Part shown: one piece after another, positions 5,226 to 43,595 of the stretch
Position numbering within the stretch: the stretch's first letter is position 1
Layout: every line of letters starts with the position of its first letter
Virus record (IMG/VR): IMGVR_UViG_3300021375_000054
Span: 1 to 45,199 of that record
Reading direction: 5' to 3' (one strand)
From: a virus
DNA length: 45,199 bases
Notes under the pieces: generated by a model
Told to the model about the DNA's origin: nothing
Seen by the model: the letters and a program-made list of their open reading frames with translations, nothing else
The model's database searches: none
Made by a program: the position numbers and the translations under genes

Positions 5226-7334
5226 TTAACATGCAGAACCTTGTGTTACTGTTACACTAGCACCACCTATCGCCTGAAGCGATGAATAGATCTGAGCTGG
5301 CGGCGCAGATGTACATATTTGTGTGGTCGAGTATGAACCAATTTGTACACTTAAATCACCGTAACCATCACAGTTAGGTACACCCTGAAGTGTTCCGCTC
5401 ACGTACGTGGTACTTTGGTTCATTAATGTATAATTCGTACAACCAGAGCCTGAACCTGAGCCTGAACTTGCAGTTGTTGTAGCTACTGTAGCTGAACTGC
5501 TCCATCTAGCGTATAATTGCAAGTGGTCGTAAATACCATCTGTACCGGTAAACGCACTCGTTGGAGGTACTGCACCTGGGGCGTATGACGTACCAGTGCC
5601 CATGTAACTAGTATTCCATGTATCGAATGTATAACCTGATCTAGTGAATGAGTTAGCAGCTACTGTTAGACCAGCTCCACCAGTACCAGCTCCTGTACCG
5701 GATCCAGTTCCGCCATTAGGGTCGTAACTAATCTTGTATGCAGGTGCACCAACTGCAGTAGCCTGTGCAATCACTTGTTGTCCTGCGTTACTATATCCAC
5801 TAGGTACTTGAAGAACTAAAGAATAAGTATTTGAACCTTCTGCCATAGTTGATGGGTTAAACGTTACTACGCTAGGACCATTCTGTGCCCAAGTATATTG
5901 GGTTGTGCTACCTTCTAAACCATCACTAACACTTAAGTTAGCCATAGAAGCCGTATATAATGGTAGAGTAGTAGCTGCAGTTGCTTGAGTTGTAGCTGCA
6001 GTTGCTTGAGTTGTAGCTGCAGTTGCTTGAGTTGTAGCTGCAGTCGCATTTACACCCACTTGAATTATAGAAATACTATCAGTTATACTCGAATTACTTG
6101 GGTGTGTAATTGCAATTACACCAGATCTTTGGCTTGTGCTTGTATTTTCTGCAACTGTAAATTCAGCTCTATTATTATTTGCACCTCCAGAATAAGTATT
6201 AAATGTTATCCATGATGGAGCTGTAACTAAACCAGAATTTAAAAGTTGTCCAGCAACTCCGTCAATTAGGTAAAGGAAGCTTTGACTACTTGCACTAGCA
6301 CTTACACCTGAACTTGGAGTCCATGTTACTGAATCAAATTCAATTGTTTGTGCAGCTACCGTAGTAGTTGCTGAAGTTGCTTGAGTTGTAGTTGCACTAC
6401 TGCCAGTCCAAGGATCTCCGTTAACATCTACTTCAACGTCTTCTCCGTTTGTAATTTCAATTGAGTTACCGTAAACAGAACCATCGTAATTTACTTCGAT
6501 GTTATCAGTTGGGTTTAGAGTAATTGTACCACTATATCCGCCACCTCCACATGGAGACATACAGAATGGAGTCCAACTTACTGTACCTGCATTATCTACT
6601 GCACCCCAGTATTGGCCTTGGTAATATCTAACCATACCAGCTTCTGGGCTAGCAATTGCACTTTCCGGTAATTTGAATGTAGAGTTTGCACCAAGAAAAT
6701 ATACGTTAGTGCCTGTACCATTACCTATTGAAAACTTATCAGTTCCTAAACTAAATTCAACAGTTTCAGCTGGGTTATTAAGGTTTGAACCAAATGTTTC
6801 AGCCAGTTTATATTTAACAAATGTATTTCCATCACCATCAACTTCTTCCGAAGATTCAAGAGTAATAGAAACATTATTTACAGTTCCGTTAATAGGTCCA
6901 TGCCAAAATGTAAGATATTCATCTGAAGTAGAGGCATGTTTACCAATAACTAAAGTTGATCTTAAACCAGTTAAGCCGTCATTATTATTTACATTGTCAT
7001 AAGTCTGATCTCCTAAGAAAATTACAGGATGATAAGTATCGCTCTCTAATTTTGGCTTAAGTATTACGTAATCTGGATTTGCTGCGTTACTAGGGTTAAC
7101 AGGAATTGTTTCCCATCTAGAAGTTGTAGTTCCAGTCTCACCTTTTAAACCTTGAGCACCTTTTTGTCCTTTAGCACCAGTTTGTCCTACTGAGCCCTGA
7201 GAGCCTTTTGTACCTTTTTGTCCTATTGGCCCACCTCCATTCGCAAGAATCTGGTCAAAGTTATAGTTAACCTTTTCCCACTTGATCTGGCTTGAGTCGC
7301 TAGGGTGTAGTATTTCTTGAATGTTTATGGCCAT
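5226..7334 (-). CDS. Collagen-like, BACON-containing tail fibre/adhesin (702 aa)
   Basis: The N-terminus (QIKWEKVNYNFDQIL) resembles fibre attachment regions. A collagen-like Gly-X-Y run follows (about residues 35-68, starting GPIGQKGTKGSQGS). A beta region leads to a BACON-like domain (about 320-430, with WITF, AEFTVAENTSTSQRSGVIAI and IIQVG). Next come a TQATAAT tandem linker (about 433-454), a domain with LSVSDGLEG, and a Listeria-Bacteroides (Flg_new/InlB-B-like) repeat (about 533-610, YDPNGG...GYTFDTW...LYARW). A Cys-containing C-terminal domain follows a SGSGSGSG linker. BACON and Flg_new modules are associated with carbohydrate or surface binding, so the likely role is host-cell recognition. 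It lies directly after the 2809-residue gene and shares modules with it. Confidence 0.75.
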   Translation of the reverse strand: MAINIQEILHPSDSSQIKWEKVNYNFDQILANGGGPIGQKGTKGSQGSVGQTGAKGQKGAQGLKGETGTTTSRWETIPVNPSNAANPDYVILKPKLESDTYHPVIFLGDQTYDNVNNNDGLTGLRSTLVIGKHASTSDEYLTFWHGPINGTVNNVSITLESSEEVDGDGNTFVKYKLAETFGSNLNNPAETVEFSLGTDKFSIGNGTGTNVYFLGANSTFKLPESAIASPEAGMVRYYQGQYWGAVDNAGTVSWTPFCMSPCGGGGYSGTITLNPTDNIEVNYDGSVYGNSIEITNGEDVEVDVNGDPWTGSSATTTQATSATTTVAAQTIEFDSVTWTPSSGVSASASSQSFLYLIDGVAGQLLNSGLVTAPSWITFNTYSGGANNNRAEFTVAENTSTSQRSGVIAITHPSNSSITDSISIIQVGVNATAATTQATAATTQATAATTQATAATTLPLYTASMANLSVSDGLEGSTTQYTWAQNGPSVVTFNPSTMAEGSNTYSLVLQVPSGYSNAGQQVIAQATAVGAPAYKISYDPNGGTGSGTGAGTGGAGLTVAANSFTRSGYTFDTWNTSYMGTGTSYAPGAVPPTSAFTGTDGIYDHLQLYARWSSSATVATTTASSGSGSGSGCTNYTLMNQSTTYVSGTLQGVPNCDGYGDLSVQIGSYSTTQICTSAPPAQIYSSLQAIGGASVTVTQGSAC
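5971..6044 (-). repeat. 21-nt tandem repeat encoding TQATAAT
   Basis: Three perfect 21-nt copies (5971-5991, 5992-6012, 6013-6033; plus-strand unit GTAGCTGCAGTTGCTTGAGT plus T) are followed by a partial fourth. In the fibre gene they encode a TQATAAT heptapeptide repeat linking the BACON-like domain to the next domain. Perfect identity at DNA level suggests recent expansion by slippage. A related non-identical stretch (TTTQATSATTT) occurs before the BACON domain near 6350-6400. Confidence 0.9.
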
Positions 7335-24826: not shown

Positions 24827-25093
24827 TTATCTAGTTCTATCGTCGTCTTTTTCTACTGTAAAGTTCTTGAAATTTCTTAAGTATCTCACTTGCGTTAACA
24901 CGTTAGTAATTATATCGTTAATAAATCCTAAGAATTCTCTCATAGTCTGGTTTCTTTGAATAAACCTAGACAATTGATTTTGAAGTAGACTATTATCATA
25001 GTCATACCTCGTATTCTTTAGATCATCTTTTCTATGCTTAGCTATTTTATATAGCCTTTTACGCTTGTATACTCTTAGGTCTTTAAATAACAT
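24827..25093 (-). CDS. Small basic protein between gp6 and gp7 (88 aa), unknown
   Basis: The N-terminal half is strongly basic (FKDLRVYKRKRLYKIAKHRK), followed by Arg/Asn/Gln-rich helices and an acidic-basic end (EKDDDRTR). Its ATG overlaps the gp6-like stop by one base (TAATG), and its own stop is one base from the gp7-like start. Expression is thus probably tied to the wedge genes. It is likely a small wedge-assembly or structural factor, but no family was recognised. Confidence 0.6.
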   Translation of the reverse strand: MLFKDLRVYKRKRLYKIAKHRKDDLKNTRYDYDNSLLQNQLSRFIQRNQTMREFLGFINDIITNVLTQVRYLRNFKNFTVEKDDDRTR

Positions 25094-26922
25094 TATTTCA
25101 AGGCTTTTCTATTTCCAGCCTGTACTCTAGTGTATATTGTTCTAGGTACTGGCGTTTCATCAAAGTTTACACTAAGTGCAGCTTCTGCGTTAATCGCAGC
25201 ATCATCAACAATTTCATCTCCATCTCTATCTAGCCATCCGCCCCTAAAGACAGCGACTTCTTCTTTTTCCATGATGATGTCACCCCACTCGTCTAAGCCT
25301 GCAATTGTATAGGGAATTTGTGTAGTAGCATCTACATCCACGGTCTTAACTTCCTCTATACGCTTAAAGAAAACATATTTTTGTTTGCCGTTACCAATTT
25401 CTTCTAGAACTACAGGTTCTTGTGGGACTACAGTTACAGTCTTAGACTCATAGTAACCCAGGCGTCTAGCTGTCTCTTCTGTTTCTGAGATGAATCTCAC
25501 ATTTACTGCATCAATACCATCAATCGTTTCTAAAATATAGACAATATCCGATTTAGGTAGTTTATCTCTTCTTGTAATGTTTAACATGTAATCACTAACT
25601 CTAGCTCTTACTTCGTTGTAAATTTCTTGTTTTGTATAACCTTCAAAATACCTAATGTTAATATCCATACTGTATTTTCTAATTTGAGGTTTTACAAAGA
25701 TAACTTCTGTTGTTACCATTTGTTGACCGCTATCCTGAATTACTTGTGACATTTTGTCATATTCATTTTGGTCAAAGAACATTTCGTTCAATGGAATCGA
25801 GAAGTAATCTTGATCTGCTAATAACTTTCTCTTAGCATCTGGAATAGCAAAAATGTAAATTACATTATCATCATCTAAATACTGATCTGATGTAGTATTG
25901 TAAGCATCCACATACGAGAATAATCCGTATCTTGATAGGAAATACTCGTAATTATCTGGAGTCGCTAAGACATAAGATTTAGAAGCCAGAGGCGCCATTA
26001 ACTTAGTGAACTCAACATTTTCAGCGTTCGCACCCATTTTAGGGGAAGAGGTTACATTTATTTCTAAATATTCATTTAAGTCAAAATTATTACCATTTGA
26101 ATCACTACCTTCAGACTGCCATTGGAATGTTAAATCTTGTCCGTCTGCTAAATTACCTTGAGCTCCTTTGTGTTTTACATATTCCACCATAATATCAGAT
26201 CCTCTTGTAGGTATTGCACCGAAGTTACCAGTACCAAAGTAAATATCTAAACCTCCAGCAACACCAGTCTTAATAATATAGCCTTTTTCTTCACTTAGCA
26301 AATCATACATTGAATCATGCTTAGTCCATTTTTGGCCGTTAACTGAAACACTAACTTTAGAATGATCTGTTAAAGATGCAATTTTTACATTATATGATTG
26401 CATAGGCTCTCCAGTTCCAGTAAATGTTTGTTGTTCAAATTTACCTTGAATGATAGCAACTTTAGTTTTAGTTTTATTAGATTTTTCTAATCTATATTTT
26501 TCTTGTGAAGATAATACAGTGTAGGTTAATCCATTTAATGGGCAAACTAGTTCAGATCTTGCGTCTACGTTTAAACCACTACCTGCAATCATACCTAGAT
26601 CTGCACCTACTTTCCATCTAAATTCAATTTCACCAGTTGCTGCAAACCCTCTTGTTGCATCATGTCCGGTTAATCTTGAAATACCATAAATAGACTCAGG
26701 TTGTTGAGCTGTATAAATGTTTTGCTCTACTAATGAATCTTCAATGTAGAACATAATTAATTCAGAGATCTCAGAAACTACATTTACAACTTGGGCAAAT
26801 GGAGATGCATCGGTAAACAACGTTCCGGCCCTCTTGTATACTCTAGAGATATATGTACGAGCATCTGACTGAATTTGATCTGCTCTTGTTCTTAATGTAC
26901 TTAAAAATTTTAGTTCCGCCAT
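25093..26922 (-). CDS. gp6-like baseplate wedge protein (baseplate J family)
   Basis: At 609 residues it is close to T4 gp6 (660). The N-terminus (LRTRADQIQSDARTYISRVY, then FYIEDSLVEQNIYTAQQ and IYGISRLTGHDATRGFAATG) and the following beta region (GSGLNVDARSELVCPLNGLTY) have the layout of baseplate J/gp6 proteins. These include an anchoring helical part and a series of beta domains with a C-terminal IDAVNVRFISE-type segment. Gp6 forms the dimer ring that joins wedges in the inner baseplate. The gp25-like gene precedes it by seven bases, the conserved gp25-gp6 pairing of contractile injection machines. Confidence 0.85.
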   Translation of the reverse strand: MAELKFLSTLRTRADQIQSDARTYISRVYKRAGTLFTDASPFAQVVNVVSEISELIMFYIEDSLVEQNIYTAQQPESIYGISRLTGHDATRGFAATGEIEFRWKVGADLGMIAGSGLNVDARSELVCPLNGLTYTVLSSQEKYRLEKSNKTKTKVAIIQGKFEQQTFTGTGEPMQSYNVKIASLTDHSKVSVSVNGQKWTKHDSMYDLLSEEKGYIIKTGVAGGLDIYFGTGNFGAIPTRGSDIMVEYVKHKGAQGNLADGQDLTFQWQSEGSDSNGNNFDLNEYLEINVTSSPKMGANAENVEFTKLMAPLASKSYVLATPDNYEYFLSRYGLFSYVDAYNTTSDQYLDDDNVIYIFAIPDAKRKLLADQDYFSIPLNEMFFDQNEYDKMSQVIQDSGQQMVTTEVIFVKPQIRKYSMDINIRYFEGYTKQEIYNEVRARVSDYMLNITRRDKLPKSDIVYILETIDGIDAVNVRFISETEETARRLGYYESKTVTVVPQEPVVLEEIGNGKQKYVFFKRIEEVKTVDVDATTQIPYTIAGLDEWGDIIMEKEEVAVFRGGWLDRDGDEIVDDAAINAEAALSVNFDETPVPRTIYTRVQAGNRKALK

Positions 26923-26929
26923 TAGTTAT

Positions 26930-27286
26930 TTATCTTAAATTTACTTGGATTTGATACTCGTTATTAATTGTAATATCTATATAACAAATATCCCTAACTT
27001 CACCCTTATAGAAACTAACCTCAACGTCAGTTGAGTAATCTCTAGATAGAGGGCAATAGTTATCCAGTTGGTTTACTATCTCGTTTTTGACTTGCCATTC
27101 GTTTTGATTTAAACTATAAACCAAATCTTCTAAGTTACAACCAAATTCAGGATTACCCAACACATCTTGCTTTCTTGTAAAAAGTACAGTTTCGATCTGA
27201 GCTATCAATTGATTTATTTCAGTAGAATTCTGAATAATACCAGTTTGATAGTTCGGGTCACCTATGTATTTAATGTAAAAATCCAT
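26930..27286 (-). CDS. gp25-like baseplate wedge protein
   Basis: The protein of 118 residues has the family core: INQLIAQIETVLFTRKQDVL, then NPEFGCNLEDLVYS, then a helix and closing strands with VRDICYIDITINN. The LFTxxGxxxxNPxFGxxLxxL pattern is the hallmark of the gp25/W-like family found in T4-like phages, P2-like phages and type VI secretion (TssE). Gp25 with gp6 forms the core bundle that controls sheath initiation. Its position directly before the gp6-like gene strengthens the call. The related lysozyme annotation sometimes given to this family does not imply enzymatic activity here. Confidence 0.9.
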   Translation of the reverse strand: MDFYIKYIGDPNYQTGIIQNSTEINQLIAQIETVLFTRKQDVLGNPEFGCNLEDLVYSLNQNEWQVKNEIVNQLDNYCPLSRDYSTDVEVSFYKGEVRDICYIDITINNEYQIQVNLR

Positions 27287-27306: not shown

Positions 27307-28149
27307 TTATGAGTGGAACATCCAGTCCACACCTTCATCACCCTTGATTTCTTCAATAATCGACTCTAATTCGGTGTCTCCCATGTCTTTTATTGCGTCA
27401 TAGTCAAATTCTACATTACCTGGCAATGCGAATTTAAAGATGCCAAGTTTGGCACCTAAGGACTGCTTAATCTTAGCAGAACAATATCTAAAGAAGATCT
27501 CGTCTTCATAGATAGCACAGTCTGGTAGAGTTTCATAAACTTGTAGGATAACATCTTGTTTAGGTGTATCTCCTAGTATTTTTAACTCACCAGTTAATCT
27601 CGAGTACTGAAATGAAATAGGATTTTCTAAAATCTGTCTAGACAAATCAGCCATCGATGCGTTTAATACATAATATTGTAATTCTTCAGCTGCTTCTGCT
27701 GGACCAGATCCATCATACATGCCTCTAAATAACATTTTTTCTAAAGCGAAATCACCACCACCTTGAAACCTCATATCAAGGCCTTGTCCAACTCCACCAA
27801 AACCACTTCCTAAATCATGAACTCCAAATACTGAAAATACAGCACCGGATCCATCTGTACTAGCGTTAGGTAGATTTAAAGATCTATGGTTTTTAAAATA
27901 TGTAGAATCAAATACCGAAGAAGGTATATGATAATAGTTTTCTCTTACAGAATCTTCATAGTTTTTATAGAACCATTTTTTAGCTCTTTTAACTATGTTC
28001 ATAATTTCTCTTTGAGGTAGGTTAACAGGAACCATACAAGCGCCTGTTAAATCATCTCCCAATTCTTGAAGAAATGCATTTAAACAGTTATCACCAAACG
28101 TTCTTTCGTTGTTTAGGTTGGTTTCGTTACCTGATCTAATTTCACTCAT
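27307..28149 (-). CDS. Neck/head-tail connector-like structural protein (280 aa), putative gp13/gp14 type
   Basis: The N-terminal helical segment (PVNLPQREIMNIVKRAKKWF) leads to a Gly-rich loop (GSGFGGVGQGLDMRFQGGGD). Helix and beta regions follow, then a C-terminal signature FRYCSAKIKQSLGAKLGIFKF with LPGNVEFDYDAIKDMGDTEL. This K-x-x-LG...LPG...G-x-x-EL arrangement resembles neck proteins of T4-like marine phages that cap the portal and join head to tail. The gene lies between the amidoligase-like and gp25-like genes, with a 20-bp gap before gp25. Alternative: another wedge or hub component. The call rests on recalled motif similarity. Confidence 0.4.
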   Translation of the reverse strand: MSEIRSGNETNLNNERTFGDNCLNAFLQELGDDLTGACMVPVNLPQREIMNIVKRAKKWFYKNYEDSVRENYYHIPSSVFDSTYFKNHRSLNLPNASTDGSGAVFSVFGVHDLGSGFGGVGQGLDMRFQGGGDFALEKMLFRGMYDGSGPAEAAEELQYYVLNASMADLSRQILENPISFQYSRLTGELKILGDTPKQDVILQVYETLPDCAIYEDEIFFRYCSAKIKQSLGAKLGIFKFALPGNVEFDYDAIKDMGDTELESIIEEIKGDEGVDWMFHS

Positions 28150-28150
28150 T

Positions 28151-29464
28151 TTATTTTTCTATTTTTGTGCTTACCACTATTTCAGTATTATCTTCAAACC
28201 TAGCATATTTACTAAGGCCTCCCTCTCTAAAGATGCCACCTTTCATTTTACCTTTGAAAATTCCGTCTCTACCAAACACATAACAGTTGGTAAGTTCGCA
28301 ACTTCCATGAACATAACTAGACTCTACTTTACAGTCAATCAATTCACAGCCTTTATATAATTGACATCTTAAAAGTTGTCCACCAGTTACAGTGCCTCCA
28401 AATATAGAGCTGTTCTCGATATTACCTGATAACTCGCAGTCTATAAATTCAAATCCATCTAAAAGATATGCAGCACCAAATTTACCGTCTTTAACTTGAA
28501 TCGAAGAATAGTCAGAATCATAATTAATAATTCCCTCTTCTAACGATCCATTTGACAAAAGATCTAGTACTTTTTTCTTAAATCGATCCCATTGAACCTC
28601 AATAACCTGCGGATCGTCTTGTAAATCCACTAATATATTTATCTTCGGCCAATGTTTATTTACTGCTTTATAGTCTTTTAGCATTTCTGTTAGAGGCTCG
28701 TTCTTTTTAAGAATCCTCTTAAGCTCTATTTTATTCTCTGGTGAGAATCTAGGATTATGGCAAGATTTCCATATAGACATGATAAATCCATCTGCTAAAT
28801 GTAGAATATCATCCGCTCTTTTTTCATAATTTTTACCACCTAAATATCTAAATTCTAGATAGTTCTTTTGAGCCTTCTCAAAGTTAATACCATAATACTT
28901 AGTATTAGCAAATGTAAAATTGTCTTTGTTAACCATATTCTCATTATAGTAGAAAGCCTCGTGTTTTGGCATAATCCATTTAATAGATTTTGCATAAGTA
29001 GAGTCTTCTCTATTTGGAAAATATTTATAGATTCTTGCCTCATCAAACTCAAGGATAAACTTCATCACATTCATGTGTTGAATCATATTTCTATCCTCTA
29101 AGTAATCTGGGTTAAAAGACATATTAAGATGAATTGACGCTCTATCTGACGTATAGCCATTTTCACGAATCCATCCTAACATTTTTATGATAACTAGCCT
29201 TGCGTTTCTATAAGGCATAGGACCTGTTACCAACTCAATAAGACCTGCACCACCTGACATATCAGGTTCCATCTTAAATACGTCTGCTGATGGTACAAAA
29301 TCTGAATGAGCCTTATCTTCTAGTTTGATCTTTCTACCTAAAAGTTTAGATACAGACTTTTGGGTCTCTTCTAATTTTAAGTTAGAATAGAATTCAAACT
29401 CGATGCCCATTTGACTGGCATTCAGAACTTCTGAGCGGTGGGCGTTACTTTTTAACTTTTGCAT
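28151..29464 (-). CDS. Amidoligase-like (COOH-NH2 ligase) enzyme with C-terminal beta-helix-like tail (437 aa)
   Basis: The N-terminal half has hallmarks of the putative amidoligase family (glutamine-synthetase-like COOH-NH2 ligases): MGIEFEFYS at about residues 19-27, an acidic segment (KMEPDMSGGAGLIELVTGP, about 64-82), and a later ASIHLNMSF with a conserved-type His (about 112). These enzymes are predicted to join a carboxylate to an amine using ATP. From about residue 350 the sequence turns into short repeats rich in Cys, Gly and Ser (FIDCELSG, SSIFGGTVTGG, ELIDCKVESSYVHGSCEL), resembling pentapeptide or right-handed beta-helix repeats. It sits among virion genes, one base before the neck-like gene. 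Substrate unknown; candidates are a virion protein, cell-wall peptide or host protein. The family call is from motifs only. Confidence 0.6.
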   Translation of the reverse strand: MQKLKSNAHRSEVLNASQMGIEFEFYSNLKLEETQKSVSKLLGRKIKLEDKAHSDFVPSADVFKMEPDMSGGAGLIELVTGPMPYRNARLVIIKMLGWIRENGYTSDRASIHLNMSFNPDYLEDRNMIQHMNVMKFILEFDEARIYKYFPNREDSTYAKSIKWIMPKHEAFYYNENMVNKDNFTFANTKYYGINFEKAQKNYLEFRYLGGKNYEKRADDILHLADGFIMSIWKSCHNPRFSPENKIELKRILKKNEPLTEMLKDYKAVNKHWPKINILVDLQDDPQVIEVQWDRFKKKVLDLLSNGSLEEGIINYDSDYSSIQVKDGKFGAAYLLDGFEFIDCELSGNIENSSIFGGTVTGGQLLRCQLYKGCELIDCKVESSYVHGSCELTNCYVFGRDGIFKGKMKGGIFREGGLSKYARFEDNTEIVVSTKIEK

Positions 29465-29517: not shown

Positions 29518-30804
29518 TTATTGGGGTAATTTTAAAAACACTTTCATGGAGTCCTCGTCAATTCTAGTAATTTGGACATCAATATCATCGCCTGATGTAT
29601 AATTACTTAAAGTATCTTTAGGCAACTCACTGATGTGTAATAAACCTGTTACACCCTCTTCTATATTTACAAAAACACCATATTCTTTTTTGGTTTTAAC
29701 TTTTGCAGTTACAATAGAAGGAATCTGGTATCTAGTATTAATGTTTATCCAAGGATTAACTGTAGTAACCTCTTTTTGTGTTAGTGTTATTTTAGTATTG
29801 CTAATAATATCTTTCACAAAGAAATTAATTGGATCGCCTGGTTTAATATCTCTAGCTTTAAATTTAGTCTGAGTCTCTTCATCTAATTCATTAGTGTGAA
29901 TCATACCTGTTAGACATTTGTCAAACTCTACGAATACTCCGTATTTAGCAGTTCCAGTTACTAGACCTGATTTTTGAATTCCTATATTATCTTTAAGATC
30001 TTTAATTGCACTAGGGATTAGAGCTTGTAGATATTTTCTATGTGATACTACAATTGTACCTCTATCCGGAGAGAAACTAACCGGTACTACATAAATCTCT
30101 TCGCCGATAATAGAACTAAAGTCAGATAATTTATTAATACCCGCAAGTGAACCAGGCATAAAGCAATCGATGCCTTGTACTTTCACAATATAACCACCGT
30201 TCTCAATCATGTTCTTAACAGTACCTATCCAAGCAGTATTACCCTCCTCGATAGAATCTCTAAGATCCATAAATGTTTTCTGCTTAACTCCACCTGTAAT
30301 TGAGCCAGTTAATGTACCTTTTGTTTCTGTGATTAAGACTGCAGTCTCTTCACCTGGTAACATCATTCTAACTTCTTCAGATTCTTTTGAAGCCTTTACA
30401 TATACAGACTCTCTATATCCAATATCAACAGTAATCCATTCTTGATCTACTGCATAGATTTCACCCGTATGAATTTCTCCAATACGTAGGCTTGGTATAA
30501 TTTCAGGGCTATTGTCACTTAAAATGTCATATAACTCTTGGGCATAGGGCTCTCTTGAATAGACCTTATCACCATTTTTAGTCTTAATATGTGGGTTGGG
30601 TTTTCTAGTTCTAGTAACACACGTAGCTTCGTATGCGTCCCATAAGAATTCGCCGCTCTCATCGTAGAACTGCGCATGGGGATCTTGAGTTTCCTCTTTT
30701 ACTTCTTTTACTTCTTCTGTGGGTTTTTGAATAGTTTCAACTAATTCAACTGTAGTGCCTTCTTGGGCTGCAGTAGTAATTCTGCGTCTTTTTTTGTCTG
30801 ACAT
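29518..30804 (-). CDS. Phage-encoded ribosomal protein S1 homologue, four S1 domains (428 aa)
   Basis: After a charged N-terminal region (residues 1-100) there are four S1/OB-fold domains at about 106-168, 187-256, 276-345 and 361-427. The third and fourth show the typical S1 signature (TAKYGVFVEFDKCLTGMIHT; KEYGVFVNIEEGVTGLLHIS); the second is more divergent (GGYIVKVQGIDCFMPGSL, then IIVSHR-type ending IVVSHRKYL). Bacterial S1 usually has six domains and binds mRNA on the 30S subunit to help initiation, especially where Shine-Dalgarno pairing is weak. A phage copy could bias initiation toward phage mRNAs or protect RNA. It is preceded by a candidate promoter and flanked by a metallopeptidase-like gene and the amidoligase-like gene. 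Confidence 0.85.
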   Translation of the reverse strand: MSDKKRRRITTAAQEGTTVELVETIQKPTEEVKEVKEETQDPHAQFYDESGEFLWDAYEATCVTRTRKPNPHIKTKNGDKVYSREPYAQELYDILSDNSPEIIPSLRIGEIHTGEIYAVDQEWITVDIGYRESVYVKASKESEEVRMMLPGEETAVLITETKGTLTGSITGGVKQKTFMDLRDSIEEGNTAWIGTVKNMIENGGYIVKVQGIDCFMPGSLAGINKLSDFSSIIGEEIYVVPVSFSPDRGTIVVSHRKYLQALIPSAIKDLKDNIGIQKSGLVTGTAKYGVFVEFDKCLTGMIHTNELDEETQTKFKARDIKPGDPINFFVKDIISNTKITLTQKEVTTVNPWININTRYQIPSIVTAKVKTKKEYGVFVNIEEGVTGLLHISELPKDTLSNYTSGDDIDVQITRIDEDSMKVFLKLPQ

Positions 30805-30831: not shown

Positions 30832-30841
30832 ATTATATATC
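30832..30841 (-). promoter_or_regulatory. Candidate late promoter element GATATATAAT
   Basis: A minus-strand GATATATA core begins on the last base of the upstream stop codon, 27 bases before ATG 30804 of the S1-like gene. The leader between them is AT-rich, with no Shine-Dalgarno site. Confidence 0.4.
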
Positions 30842-31215
30842 TACTTAAGTATTCGCTTTATCCAAGTGTAATGTTTTCTACTACTTAGGTAACTTAAGTT
30901 ATCATCATGGTCATAGGCCTCCCTTTCAAAGGAGATATTATAGTAAGCCTCTTTTGCAGATTTATAGATTGGAATTTTAATAGCCCACTCTAACACATAC
31001 CATAGATAAAACGGTATCACCAACATTTCCTCTTGTTGTTTAATATGAATAGATTCATGGTTAATGATTCTAGCGGCTTTCTTTTTCCAATAAGACGTTG
31101 AATTATATTTCTCTCTTAAAACCACGAACGGCCAAAGAGTAATACCACCAACTCTCATAAACCAGCTGATGTTATTTAAAAATTTGTCGCTATACTTTAC
31201 AATAGGTGTTTTCAT
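30841..31215 (-). CDS. Small zincin-like HExxH protein of flavobacterial type (124 aa)
   Basis: The motif NHESIHIKQQEEM contains HExxH (H53, E54, H57), the zinc-binding and catalytic signature of zincins. A downstream ISFEREAYDHD (about 95-105) offers Glu residues as a third ligand. The hydrophobic helix after it (VIPFYLWYVLEWAIK) and the overall pattern closely resemble a short uncharacterised family frequent in Flavobacteriia (NHExIHxxQQ...FYLWYxxE...ISFEREAY). This is one of the better hints to the host and suggests host origin. No secretion signal is apparent. Substrate unknown. It lies 14 bases after another HExxH gene. Confidence 0.65.
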   Translation of the reverse strand: MKTPIVKYSDKFLNNISWFMRVGGITLWPFVVLREKYNSTSYWKKKAARIINHESIHIKQQEEMLVIPFYLWYVLEWAIKIPIYKSAKEAYYNISFEREAYDHDDNLSYLSSRKHYTWIKRILK

Positions 31216-31229
31216 ATACTTTATATATT

Positions 31230-31697
31230 TTATTTATTAATACTGGGCACAAATAATTCATCTGTAAGTTTTTCAGCATGTTGTTCCCATGGTCTATCTT
31301 CCCATGTTTGATTCCACCCAAATACTTGATTATTCCATAAGACTAGACCAAGCCCTTCTTTCAATAAATTATTTTCAAATTGATAAACATGTACAAGCTC
31401 ATGAAAAAAGGTTCTCTCTAATTTTTCTAAATTATATCTACTATTTAATTGAATTAGATAAACACCTGGCAATATTTCAGTTGTCAGCCCAACAATTCTA
31501 AAATCTAGGGGCGACATTTTAGTCTGTATAAATGGTACGCGAAATGGCGGATTTTGCATCAATGAATCTCTTATGAATCTTTGTGAACTCTCATTGCTAA
31601 CTACTTCACTAACTGTAGCTCTTTTAAAGATTAAGACTTCAGCACGCTGGGGTTTATTATCTTCTATAACTTGAGCTATAAAGAGTATAAAAACCAA
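31230..31697 (-). CDS. Putative exported zincin-like metallopeptidase (155 aa), start uncertain
   Basis: The core FFHELVHVYQFE carries HExxH (H99, E100, H103), and WEDRPWEQHAEKL (about 132-144) resembles the third-ligand ExxA element of small zincins. The first residues are hydrophobic (VFILFIAQVI), consistent with a signal or anchor. No ATG is available; TTG at 31697 is the start used here. The frame stays open upstream with a basic IFRK just before the hydrophobic run, so a rarer upstream start could give a fuller signal peptide. Beside the second HExxH gene it forms a metallopeptidase pair in the accessory cluster. Substrates could be host envelope or phage proteins; unknown. Confidence 0.55.
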   Translation of the reverse strand: MVFILFIAQVIEDNKPQRAEVLIFKRATVSEVVSNESSQRFIRDSLMQNPPFRVPFIQTKMSPLDFRIVGLTTEILPGVYLIQLNSRYNLEKLERTFFHELVHVYQFENNLLKEGLGLVLWNNQVFGWNQTWEDRPWEQHAEKLTDELFVPSINK

Positions 31698-38564: not shown

Positions 38565-40355
38565 TTAACCCGCTGCCATATCAGAACGATCTAGGTATCT
38601 ACCACCAGCCATTCTGCTTCTGTCTTTATTTCCGTATTGTGACATATCTACTACATCATCTAATCCTTTTTCTGCAACCTCAGGCTGTAGATACATTCTA
38701 CCTCTACCTGCATTAAACATAGACTCAATCTCTGATTTATCTCTAGGTCTACCAGGTTTAAGAGTTACTGTCATTTTTAATTTTGTAGGAAAGCCCTCAT
38801 AACCTAAAGGACCTTCAAATGAGAATTTAGCATCCTCTAAACATAGGTTACCACAAACCAACATCGGGTTCATTGGATTACCTACTGTTAAGTGCCATTG
38901 TCCAGTTGGGTCACCAGTTAAGAAAGCCTTAATTACTTCACCACCAGCAGGAGATCCCATTAACTTCATTAATGAACCTCCAATTACGTTATCCAATACT
39001 TTTGAATCTCCTAGAGCGTTAGGACCCTTTCCGTTCCTTAAACCATTAACGGCATTACCAACATCACCTAAGATGTTACCACCCATAGATTTTAATTGAT
39101 TACCAAGTGATTTTAAGTAACCAGAGTAATCTCCGGATTTTAATGCACTAAAGTCACCAAAGGGTTTACCAGTAGAACCAGATCCTGTACCCCTGGTCGC
39201 ACCACCCCAAAACGGAGCATTGTTATATGTAATTGATAATAGATTTACCAGAGTGTCCATGAAGGCTACTCTTGGCGAAGTATTATCAAATCCTCTTAAA
39301 TCATAGTAGAAGTTAAGAGTAAAATCGTTTTCAAATTTAAGGCCTTTATCATTTCTAGCTAATACAGATTTAATAGCATTGTAAGGACCATATACGTGGT
39401 TTGGAAATGTTGTACTTAATGGATCGTAACCATTTCCTTTTTCATTAACAAAATCAGACTGTGCAGCGGTATAGCCATTCGCACCAGCTTCTACTGCTTT
39501 AGTAATTGGACTTCCATCAATAAAAGAGCCTAAGGCTCCTCTCTTTTTATCGTTACTAGCACCTGTTACAGTTTGTACCTGAGAGTCTATTTGATCCCAA
39601 CCAAATCCTGTACCAAATGATAAAATATCTTCTAATTTATTATCTAGGGCCGGAGACAACCATGTAATAGCTCTTGCCAAATCAGGTTCTGATACATCTA
39701 ATTCAACACCATTTTCATCATAAGATTTTGCATTTAATAAATCATCTCCTACTGGAAAAGCAAATCTTCGCAATGTAATCATATAGTCATTTGAAATCTG
39801 ACCATAATGTTCACATTGAATAAAATCTCTAAATGAGTAGATAAACCCTATACCACCCTTACTTTGAGAGTATTCAACAATACGTTTTGCAGTAGGATTT
39901 AAGATATTATCTTCATCACCATGAATAGTAGATGCATTCCAAGATTTATATGCTGGATCGTTTTTAGTAACACCACCTGCATGGTTTCTATAAGCTAATA
40001 ATGACCATGCATTAGATTTAGATCTAACAGAGTTTACACCAGTAATTTTATCTGGAGTACCATCTTTAACCTCATAAGCCCTAGCAGCCAATGGATCTAG
40101 TCCAAATATTGAAGTAGTAGCACCTCTACCGCTAGAATCTGTATTCGGGGTAGAATTAATATTGTTTTGTCCTATAGAATTAACACTACCTGGCTCTAAC
40201 TGGTCTGCACCATCAGCTGGTGGTGAATTCTCACCAGCTTCATCACCATTTAAGTCTAAAGGGTGTCTACTAGTCTTCGTATCACCAGTTTCGTAATCTT
40301 TATAGACGTATATTGGTGGCGGTCCACTTTCAACTGTTATGAATTCTAAAGCCAT
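38565..40355 (-). CDS. Tail-tube initiator/baseplate protein, gp48/gp54-like (596 aa)
   Basis: The C-terminal third has a tube-type signature: GQWHLTVGNPMNPMLVCGNL, then DAKFSFEGPLGYEGFPTKLK, then MTVTLKPGRPRDKSEIESMF with NAGRGRMYL. This NPM...GN...FxxELGxxGFPTxLxxTVxLxxGRxRDxxxIxxMFN pattern is shared by baseplate tube-initiator-like proteins of large T4-like phages. The N-terminal 130 residues are low-complexity (PPADGADQLEPGSVNSIGQN). The middle has a Gly/Leu/Asn-rich stretch (FGDFSALKSGDYSGYLKSLG). It probably forms the first tube-like layer on the hub. A candidate promoter lies 21 bases upstream of its ATG. Confidence 0.6.
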   Translation of the reverse strand: MALEFITVESGPPPIYVYKDYETGDTKTSRHPLDLNGDEAGENSPPADGADQLEPGSVNSIGQNNINSTPNTDSSGRGATTSIFGLDPLAARAYEVKDGTPDKITGVNSVRSKSNAWSLLAYRNHAGGVTKNDPAYKSWNASTIHGDEDNILNPTAKRIVEYSQSKGGIGFIYSFRDFIQCEHYGQISNDYMITLRRFAFPVGDDLLNAKSYDENGVELDVSEPDLARAITWLSPALDNKLEDILSFGTGFGWDQIDSQVQTVTGASNDKKRGALGSFIDGSPITKAVEAGANGYTAAQSDFVNEKGNGYDPLSTTFPNHVYGPYNAIKSVLARNDKGLKFENDFTLNFYYDLRGFDNTSPRVAFMDTLVNLLSITYNNAPFWGGATRGTGSGSTGKPFGDFSALKSGDYSGYLKSLGNQLKSMGGNILGDVGNAVNGLRNGKGPNALGDSKVLDNVIGGSLMKLMGSPAGGEVIKAFLTGDPTGQWHLTVGNPMNPMLVCGNLCLEDAKFSFEGPLGYEGFPTKLKMTVTLKPGRPRDKSEIESMFNAGRGRMYLQPEVAEKGLDDVVDMSQYGNKDRSRMAGGRYLDRSDMAAG

Positions 40356-43001: not shown

Positions 43002-43595
43002 TTATTGTTCTGTGTTAAAAAAGAATGTTTGAAATAGTCTACCACTATTAATGTCTTTGCCAAAATAGTCTAATGACGCATGAAAATAATCACCTCTATA
43101 AATTACTAATCTATTATATACATTAGCTATTCTATCTGTCATTTCCCATTTAGTCATATCTTGTGAATCTTGGTAGATATAGTCTAATAGTTTCTGGTTA
43201 ATAGTACCATCTTCATTTCTTGGTAATGTATCTAGGCCTGTTTCTTTATGTCTAAATAAACCAGTACCTCCTGATAAAGGAGCGTCTGGTGTTAAGTATA
43301 AAACTCCTGCCCACTTTGTACCACTATCAGCATGAATCCAAGTTCTATCTTGTGCTGTAGTATATTGATAAGAACCACAATAGCTTTCTAAGTTATGTGG
43401 ATCTGGCCATAAGATTTTACCATGCATAGGTTCAATGTGACTAGAAATATAGTCTCTTATACCATCGTTAATATCCGGTGCTGTTCTTTGGCCTGGATAA
43501 TTACCCATAACACCATAGTCTCTTGATAAAGCCCACGCCCTTACGTCATCGACATTGTCGTAAAAGTTATCTATAATTTGTAAACTATTTGCCAT
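43002..43595 (-). CDS. 2OG-Fe(II) oxygenase-like protein (DUF6445-type), 197 aa
   Basis: A double-stranded beta-helix pattern is visible: the first iron ligands as HxD at H88-A-D90 (TWIHADSGTKWAGVLYL), a distal His at about H172 (YRGDYFHASLDYFG) and an Arg about 14 residues later (SGRLFQTFFFN) for the 2-oxoglutarate carboxylate. The surrounding GVLYLTPDAPLSGGTGLFRH with the RLVIYRGDYFH strand matches small uncharacterised 2OG-oxygenase-like proteins found in bacteria and marine phages. Likely a hydroxylase or demethylase acting on protein, nucleic acid or a small metabolite; the target is unknown. It overlaps the helicase stop by one base (TAATG). Confidence 0.7.
   Translation of the reverse strand: MANSLQIIDNFYDNVDDVRAWALSRDYGVMGNYPGQRTAPDINDGIRDYISSHIEPMHGKILWPDPHNLESYCGSYQYTTAQDRTWIHADSGTKWAGVLYLTPDAPLSGGTGLFRHKETGLDTLPRNEDGTINQKLLDYIYQDSQDMTKWEMTDRIANVYNRLVIYRGDYFHASLDYFGKDINSGRLFQTFFFNTEQ

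Follow-up and report, generated by a model that had tools for sequence, protein, structure and literature searches.

A putative amidoligase fused to a pentapeptide-repeat beta-helix behaves as a core gene of giant phages

Introduction

A 437-residue protein encoded in a stretch of virus DNA of 45,199 nucleotides (IMG/VR record IMGVR_UViG_3300021375_000054, here called the window) joins a predicted amide ligase of the glutamine synthetase (GS) fold to a C-terminal pentapeptide-repeat beta-helix, and its gene behaves as part of the vertically inherited core of giant-phage genomes. The amidoligase superfamily itself was already known: what is new is the fusion, together with the core-gene status in giant phages and the lack of the usual amidotransferase partner. 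Phage amidoligases have long been annotated, and to our knowledge no substrate has been demonstrated for any of them. The fusion was taken to be undescribed in a first-pass annotation of the window, and a literature search, which covered few subscription journals and preprints, has found no description of it; among viral structure models there is, however, one uncharacterised protein that is equivalent over the full length (A0A6J5PQ40, TM 0.85).

The gene and its homologues

The reading frame (Table 1) is a genuine gene and not a chance ORF, as established by a dN/dS of about 0.1 together with hundreds of homologues. Over the full length dN/dS amounts to 0.09-0.10, denoting purifying selection, with the core (0.07-0.09) held more tightly than the tail (0.11-0.18). 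At least 548 relatives have been confirmed in IMG/VR with a marine-type profile, and a second profile gave 326, the two sets overlapping. Matches to the protein were also obtained by tblastn in uncultured phages of 462-735 kb and in Salicola phage SCTP-2, and two profile scans of genome contigs yielded no bacterial relatives. In five out of five huge-phage genomes the gene was present as a single full-length copy.

Table 1. Coordinates of the fusion gene, its segments and motifs, and the adjoining genes of the window
Feature	Position	Strand	Remarks
Amidoligase-pentapeptide fusion ORF	28151..29464	(-)	437 aa; ATG at 29464, stop at 28151
GIEFEF, aa 20-25, GxExE metal-site motif (E22, E24)	29390..29407	(-)	Order-equivalent to GlnA GPEPEF; both E in 83/83
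IELVTGP, aa 76-82, acidic motif (E77)	29219..29239	(-)	E77 in 83/83 non-redundant members
SIHLNMSF, aa 110-117, HxNxS motif	29114..29137	(-)	Order-equivalent to GlnA MHCHMS; H112 82/83, N114 82/83, S116 83/83
LEFR, aa 203-206, ExR motif (E204, R206)	28847..28858	(-)	Order-equivalent to GlnA IEVR; 83/83
Variable, mainly helical segment, aa 241-307, connecting core and tail	28544..28744	(-)	Secondary structure of the model; identity among distant members lower than in the other two segments
Pentapeptide-repeat beta-helix domain, aa 308-430	28175..28543	(-)	Pentapeptide_4 in homologues, profile match, Foldseek
Neck / head-tail adaptor protein	27307..28149	(-)	phrog_211 E=4.6e-9; homologue annotated 'neck protein' in Tenacibaculum phage PTm1
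gp25-like baseplate wedge subunit	26930..27286	(-)	PF04965 (GPW_gp25) E=0.0023, below cut-off; phrog_43 E=4.8e-5
gp6/Baseplate_J-like wedge protein	25093..26922	(-)	PF04865 above cut-off; phrog_219 E=5e-29
RNA-binding protein, three S1 domains, just upstream	29518..30804	(-)	PF00575 E=1.2e-24, 3 stretches

The amidoligase core

The assignment to the amidoligases made in the first-pass annotation is borne out by the match of the protein to PF12224 (Amidoligase_2; E=3.4e-6, 27.5 bits, gathering cut-off 22) and by the presence of all three motifs that it had named (GIEFEF, IELVTGP and SIHLNMSF). The match was repeated in a genome-wide search, in which 14 control genomes gave none. It spans residues 18-137 only and misses the ExR motif, because the subfamily is divergent: at E<=0.01, PF12224 matches just 23 of the 79 homologues.

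The AlphaFold2 model, built from those 79 homologues, reached a pLDDT of 91.1 and a pTM of 0.85. Foldseek searches of the PDB with this model returned glutamine synthetase and bifunctional glutathione synthetase (probability 0.99-1.00, E of about 5e-4 to 1e-3), the best match being bifunctional glutathione synthetase 3ln7, and among viral structure models they returned many phage proteins named 'Amidoligase enzyme'. The global TM-score to GS is low (about 0.27 in Foldseek), which we attribute to differences in the extra domains. Fold and order of the catalytic motifs are shared with glutamine synthetase and glutamate-cysteine ligase, whereas similarity in sequence is undetectable and the beta-helix is an addition of the phage protein: by sequence alone no link was found between the core and solved structures, and a profile comparison of the family with E. 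coli GlnA showed no GS similarity (hhalign E=0.1).

The order of all four motifs parallels GPEPEF, EVATAGQNEV, MHCHMS and IEVR of E. coli GlnA, with no one GS acid assigned to E77. Of 83 non-redundant members, reaching down to about 30% identity, 82-83 retain each of the residues E22, E24, E77, H112, S116, E204 and R206. Both the GS-like fold and the acidic ATP/metal-binding residues, on which the first-pass annotation had hinged, are therefore present. With the GS-type motif residues invariant, the core is almost certainly a catalytic ATP-dependent COOH-NH2 ligase, as judged from alignment and model, and its placement in the class of amide ligases of GS fold is very probable.

The pentapeptide beta-helix tail

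The beta-helix-like tail had also been suspected from the letters alone, and comparison of the homologues and of the model supports the predicted C-terminal pentapeptide-repeat beta-helix as a feature present throughout the clade. Pentapeptide_4 matches 42 of the 79 homologues; the window sequence itself gives no significant match of this type, the class being defined by at least eight contiguous repeats. The family profile has a weak, MCBG-like match among solved pentapeptide proteins (E=0.002), in the model the residues from 308 onward form short strands, and Foldseek relates the tail to QnrB1, to 6fls and to an Orpheovirus pentapeptide protein. The hydrophobic periodicity of the window tail peaks at 5.2, not exactly at 5 (strict-5 shuffle p=0.10), and a period of 5 is found at p<0.05 in 74% of the 70 homologues that could be tested. 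Moreover, R413 is invariant across members, and the region can be aligned throughout the full-length family, being missing from the homologues of Agrobacterium phage Atu_ph07 and of SCTP-2.

The predicted beta-helix is shared with pentapeptide-repeat proteins such as Qnr and the McbG-like proteins; here, in contrast, it is a C-terminal domain fused to an enzyme, with no sign of gyrase function. A weak NCBIfam match to HalA in one relative fell on the pentapeptide region and far under the cut-off, and this identity was rejected. When the tail domain was sought on other nearby proteins, the only match was a repetitive protein at L187, which was judged to be a coincidence of repeats and discarded as a second carrier. 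This highly repetitive protein of WFNGTFNxGTF type (L187:11204-12643), encoded close to an amidoligase gene, is perhaps a beta-solenoid fibre.

Relatives with the core alone

The 490-kb jumbo phage Atu_ph07 encodes a 500-aa protein (AUZ94978, A0A2L0UZM1, 'Amidoligase enzyme') matched by the family profile at E=9.9e-20. It has the same GS-fold core and motifs as the window protein, but lacks the beta-helix tail and carries a long insertion following the ExE motif. Its gene is found at a distance of two genes from the portal gene, with prohead genes near, and would correspond to gp196 when counted from gp198 and gp204 of PMC6102473. That paper gives CDS 170-215 as one of the three clusters with most of the virion proteins identified by mass spectrometry, and gp196, so numbered, would fall inside this cluster, a placement by gene position.

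Furthermore, gp124 and gp125 of Salicola phage SCTP-2 (phrog_33777-like) match the profile at about 1e-10 each and bear the same motif set; they differ from the window protein in being a tandem pair, with insertions of about 300 aa and no beta-helix. The two divergent genes (gp125, gp124; L006:10924-14684) are annotated merely as hypothetical.

Locus organisation and inheritance

In the window, the S1-domain gene is followed after 53 bp by the amidoligase gene and this, after 1 bp, by the neck gene, with the gp25-like and Baseplate_J genes beyond. The position directly before neck and gp25/gp6 genes, as noted in the first-pass annotation, holds in the window and strictly within the marine clade, where tail genes flank the amidoligase in all 26 representatives and the neck gene follows 1-12 bp after it wherever both were found; it is not universal, since other giant phages differ. 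Of the 56 non-marine representatives, 50 have a member of a tail or neck family no more than 10 kb away, in several orders and on either strand, and over all loci such a gene was found within 10 kb in 76 of 82, a raw count over related loci, which are not independent cases. Outside the marine clade, the amidoligase of some giant phages lies near baseplate-hub genes or has the neck gene on the other strand, and in several lineages it is encoded on the strand opposite to its structural neighbours; a distance of more than 300 kb separates it from the neck gene in LR745206 and LR756502.

The divergence of the amidoligase follows that of Baseplate_J (r=0.977, 32 loci), of the neck protein (r=0.974, 41 loci), of the S1-domain protein (r=0.938, 31 loci) and of gp25 (r=0.908, 33 loci). 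Tracking the baseplate and neck proteins in this manner, the gene behaves like a core gene under vertical inheritance and unlike a moron. A profile search of the Lak, PTm1, pT24, PAU, MA9V-2 and MaF61 genomes gave no amidoligase match, and these phages do possess a homologue of the window's Baseplate_J protein and, in several cases, of its neck protein; related tails without the enzyme therefore exist, and a tail of this type does not in itself require it. The Baseplate_J and neck homologues come mostly from phages of Bacteroidetes hosts, which makes a Bacteroidetes a reasonable guess for the host of the window phage.

Several neighbouring genes were recorded in addition. Two small zincin-like HExxH proteins (30841-31215 and 31230-31697, minus strand; HESIH and HELVH) are encoded in the window between the genes for the baseplate hub and the S1-domain protein. 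The product of 38565-40355 has a predicted structure of low confidence (pLDDT 62), with weak baseplate-type matches only. At 43002-43595 (minus strand), a DUF6445 / phrog_1644 'minor coat protein', weakly similar to 2OG-Fe(II) oxygenases, is a second possible protein-modifying enzyme near structural genes; a hydroxylase of this kind could find a substrate in the tail-fibre protein of 5226-7334 (minus strand), which has collagen-like matches and whose gene contains a tandem repeat of 21 bp (5966-6044). Among the 56 non-marine loci, a DHH-family-like protein adjoins the amidoligase in 33 (for example L144:13270-14973) and an FKBP-like protein lies near it in 13.

Proposed function and alternatives

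The most likely reading, held tentatively, is that of a late-made ATP-dependent amide ligase, with the beta-helix as docking or dimerisation module, acting on a protein or peptide of the phage or its host during virion building. The enzyme would be made together with the late structural genes of the giant-phage clade. With ATP and a metal, a side-chain or terminal carboxylate, probably of glutamate, would be activated as acyl-phosphate in the ExE/E/H/ExR site, and would then be joined to an amine. The beta-helix, having no chemistry of its own, may dock the enzyme on its substrate or dimerise it, and the likeliest substrate would be a protein or peptide, of phage or host origin, in need of modification while virions form. 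Taken by itself, assembly-coupled action on a protein or peptide is a possibility which we put somewhat short of even. The first-pass annotation had envisaged a virion-linked enzyme that could modify a tail protein, a cell-wall peptide or a host target; the position of the gene might suggest that the enzyme is located inside the virion, which is rather doubtful.

The leading alternative is a modification of the cell wall. Known phage amidoligases share cassettes with genes for a glutamine amidotransferase, an ATP-grasp enzyme and a gamma-glutamyl cyclotransferase, and have been proposed to alter peptidoglycan (PMC5498523, PMC10580990, PMC3890496). The enzyme could likewise introduce an unusual gamma-glutamyl or similar amide into peptidoglycan precursors and so exclude competing phages, as for the phiEco32-type amidoligases. 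The phiEco32/LUZ24/RIO-1 types (PF12224, PF14395) share with the window protein the superfamily and the predicted amide-bond chemistry, and a GGACT-family gamma-glutamylamine cyclotransferase occurs in five enzyme-bearing giant-phage genomes or contigs and in none of seven jumbo phages that lack the enzyme, a distribution that is a weak hint of gamma-glutamyl amide chemistry. However, this cyclotransferase is absent from LR756500 and LR756504 and, where positions are known, does not cluster with the ligase (24-83 kb away in W02, about 52 kb in W03 and in W04). Moreover, no GATase_6 (glutamine amidotransferase) was found in 12 genomes and contigs of giant or jumbo phages, all 14 control genomes giving a match. 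A search with PF14395, the second COOH-NH2 ligase family, gave no match there, nor any in the control genomes. Finally, the phiEco32/LUZ24/RIO-1 amidoligases belong to accessory cassettes that also carry GATase, ATP-grasp and cyclotransferase genes, whereas the gene of the window clade stands among structural genes and not in an early cassette, and its product carries a fused beta-helix not described for known cassette amidoligases. We consider a cell-wall role unlikely.

A place in small-molecule metabolism, as a GS- or glutamate-cysteine-ligase-like enzyme producing a gamma-glutamyl metabolite, would agree with the best structural match in the PDB (3ln7), but no partner pathway gene was recognised in the neighbourhood, and the fixed beta-helix and the core-gene behaviour with tail proteins indicate a macromolecular partner, so that this role seems distinctly improbable. 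Takeover of translation, in which the enzyme would attach amino acids to a protein of the ribosome or of translation, in the manner of RimK acting on S6, with the S1-domain protein as partner, is less probable still. In the marine loci and the L115-L119 relatives the S1-domain gene immediately precedes the amidoligase, in LR756500 it lies nearby, and its divergence correlates with that of the amidoligase, but the surroundings of the enzyme in the remaining giant-phage lineages yielded no S1 homologue, the correlations with neck and baseplate are at least equal, and RimK is an ATP-grasp enzyme, unlike the GS fold. A catalytically dead amidoligase reused as neck or baseplate structural or scaffold protein, to which the adjoining neck gene might point, is highly improbable given the invariant catalytic residues and a dN/dS lowest in the catalytic core. 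A role as defence system was rejected, there being no PADLOC match.

To return to an assembly-coupled ligase, its more specific form, a GS-fold enzyme, virion-borne or acting during assembly, that covalently tags proteins of the neck or tail, or crosslinks them by isopeptide bonds, with ATP under guidance of the beta-helix, is itself unlikely. Core-gene status, association with tail and neck genes, fusion to a binding domain and absence of the amidotransferase narrow the search for the substrate to proteins of late infection, and make the question testable by mass spectrometry of virions, including those of the cultured relative Atu_ph07. If a crosslinking ligase were indeed at work, giant phages would possess a route of virion maturation or reinforcement chemically unlike the autocatalytic crosslinking of the HK97 type.
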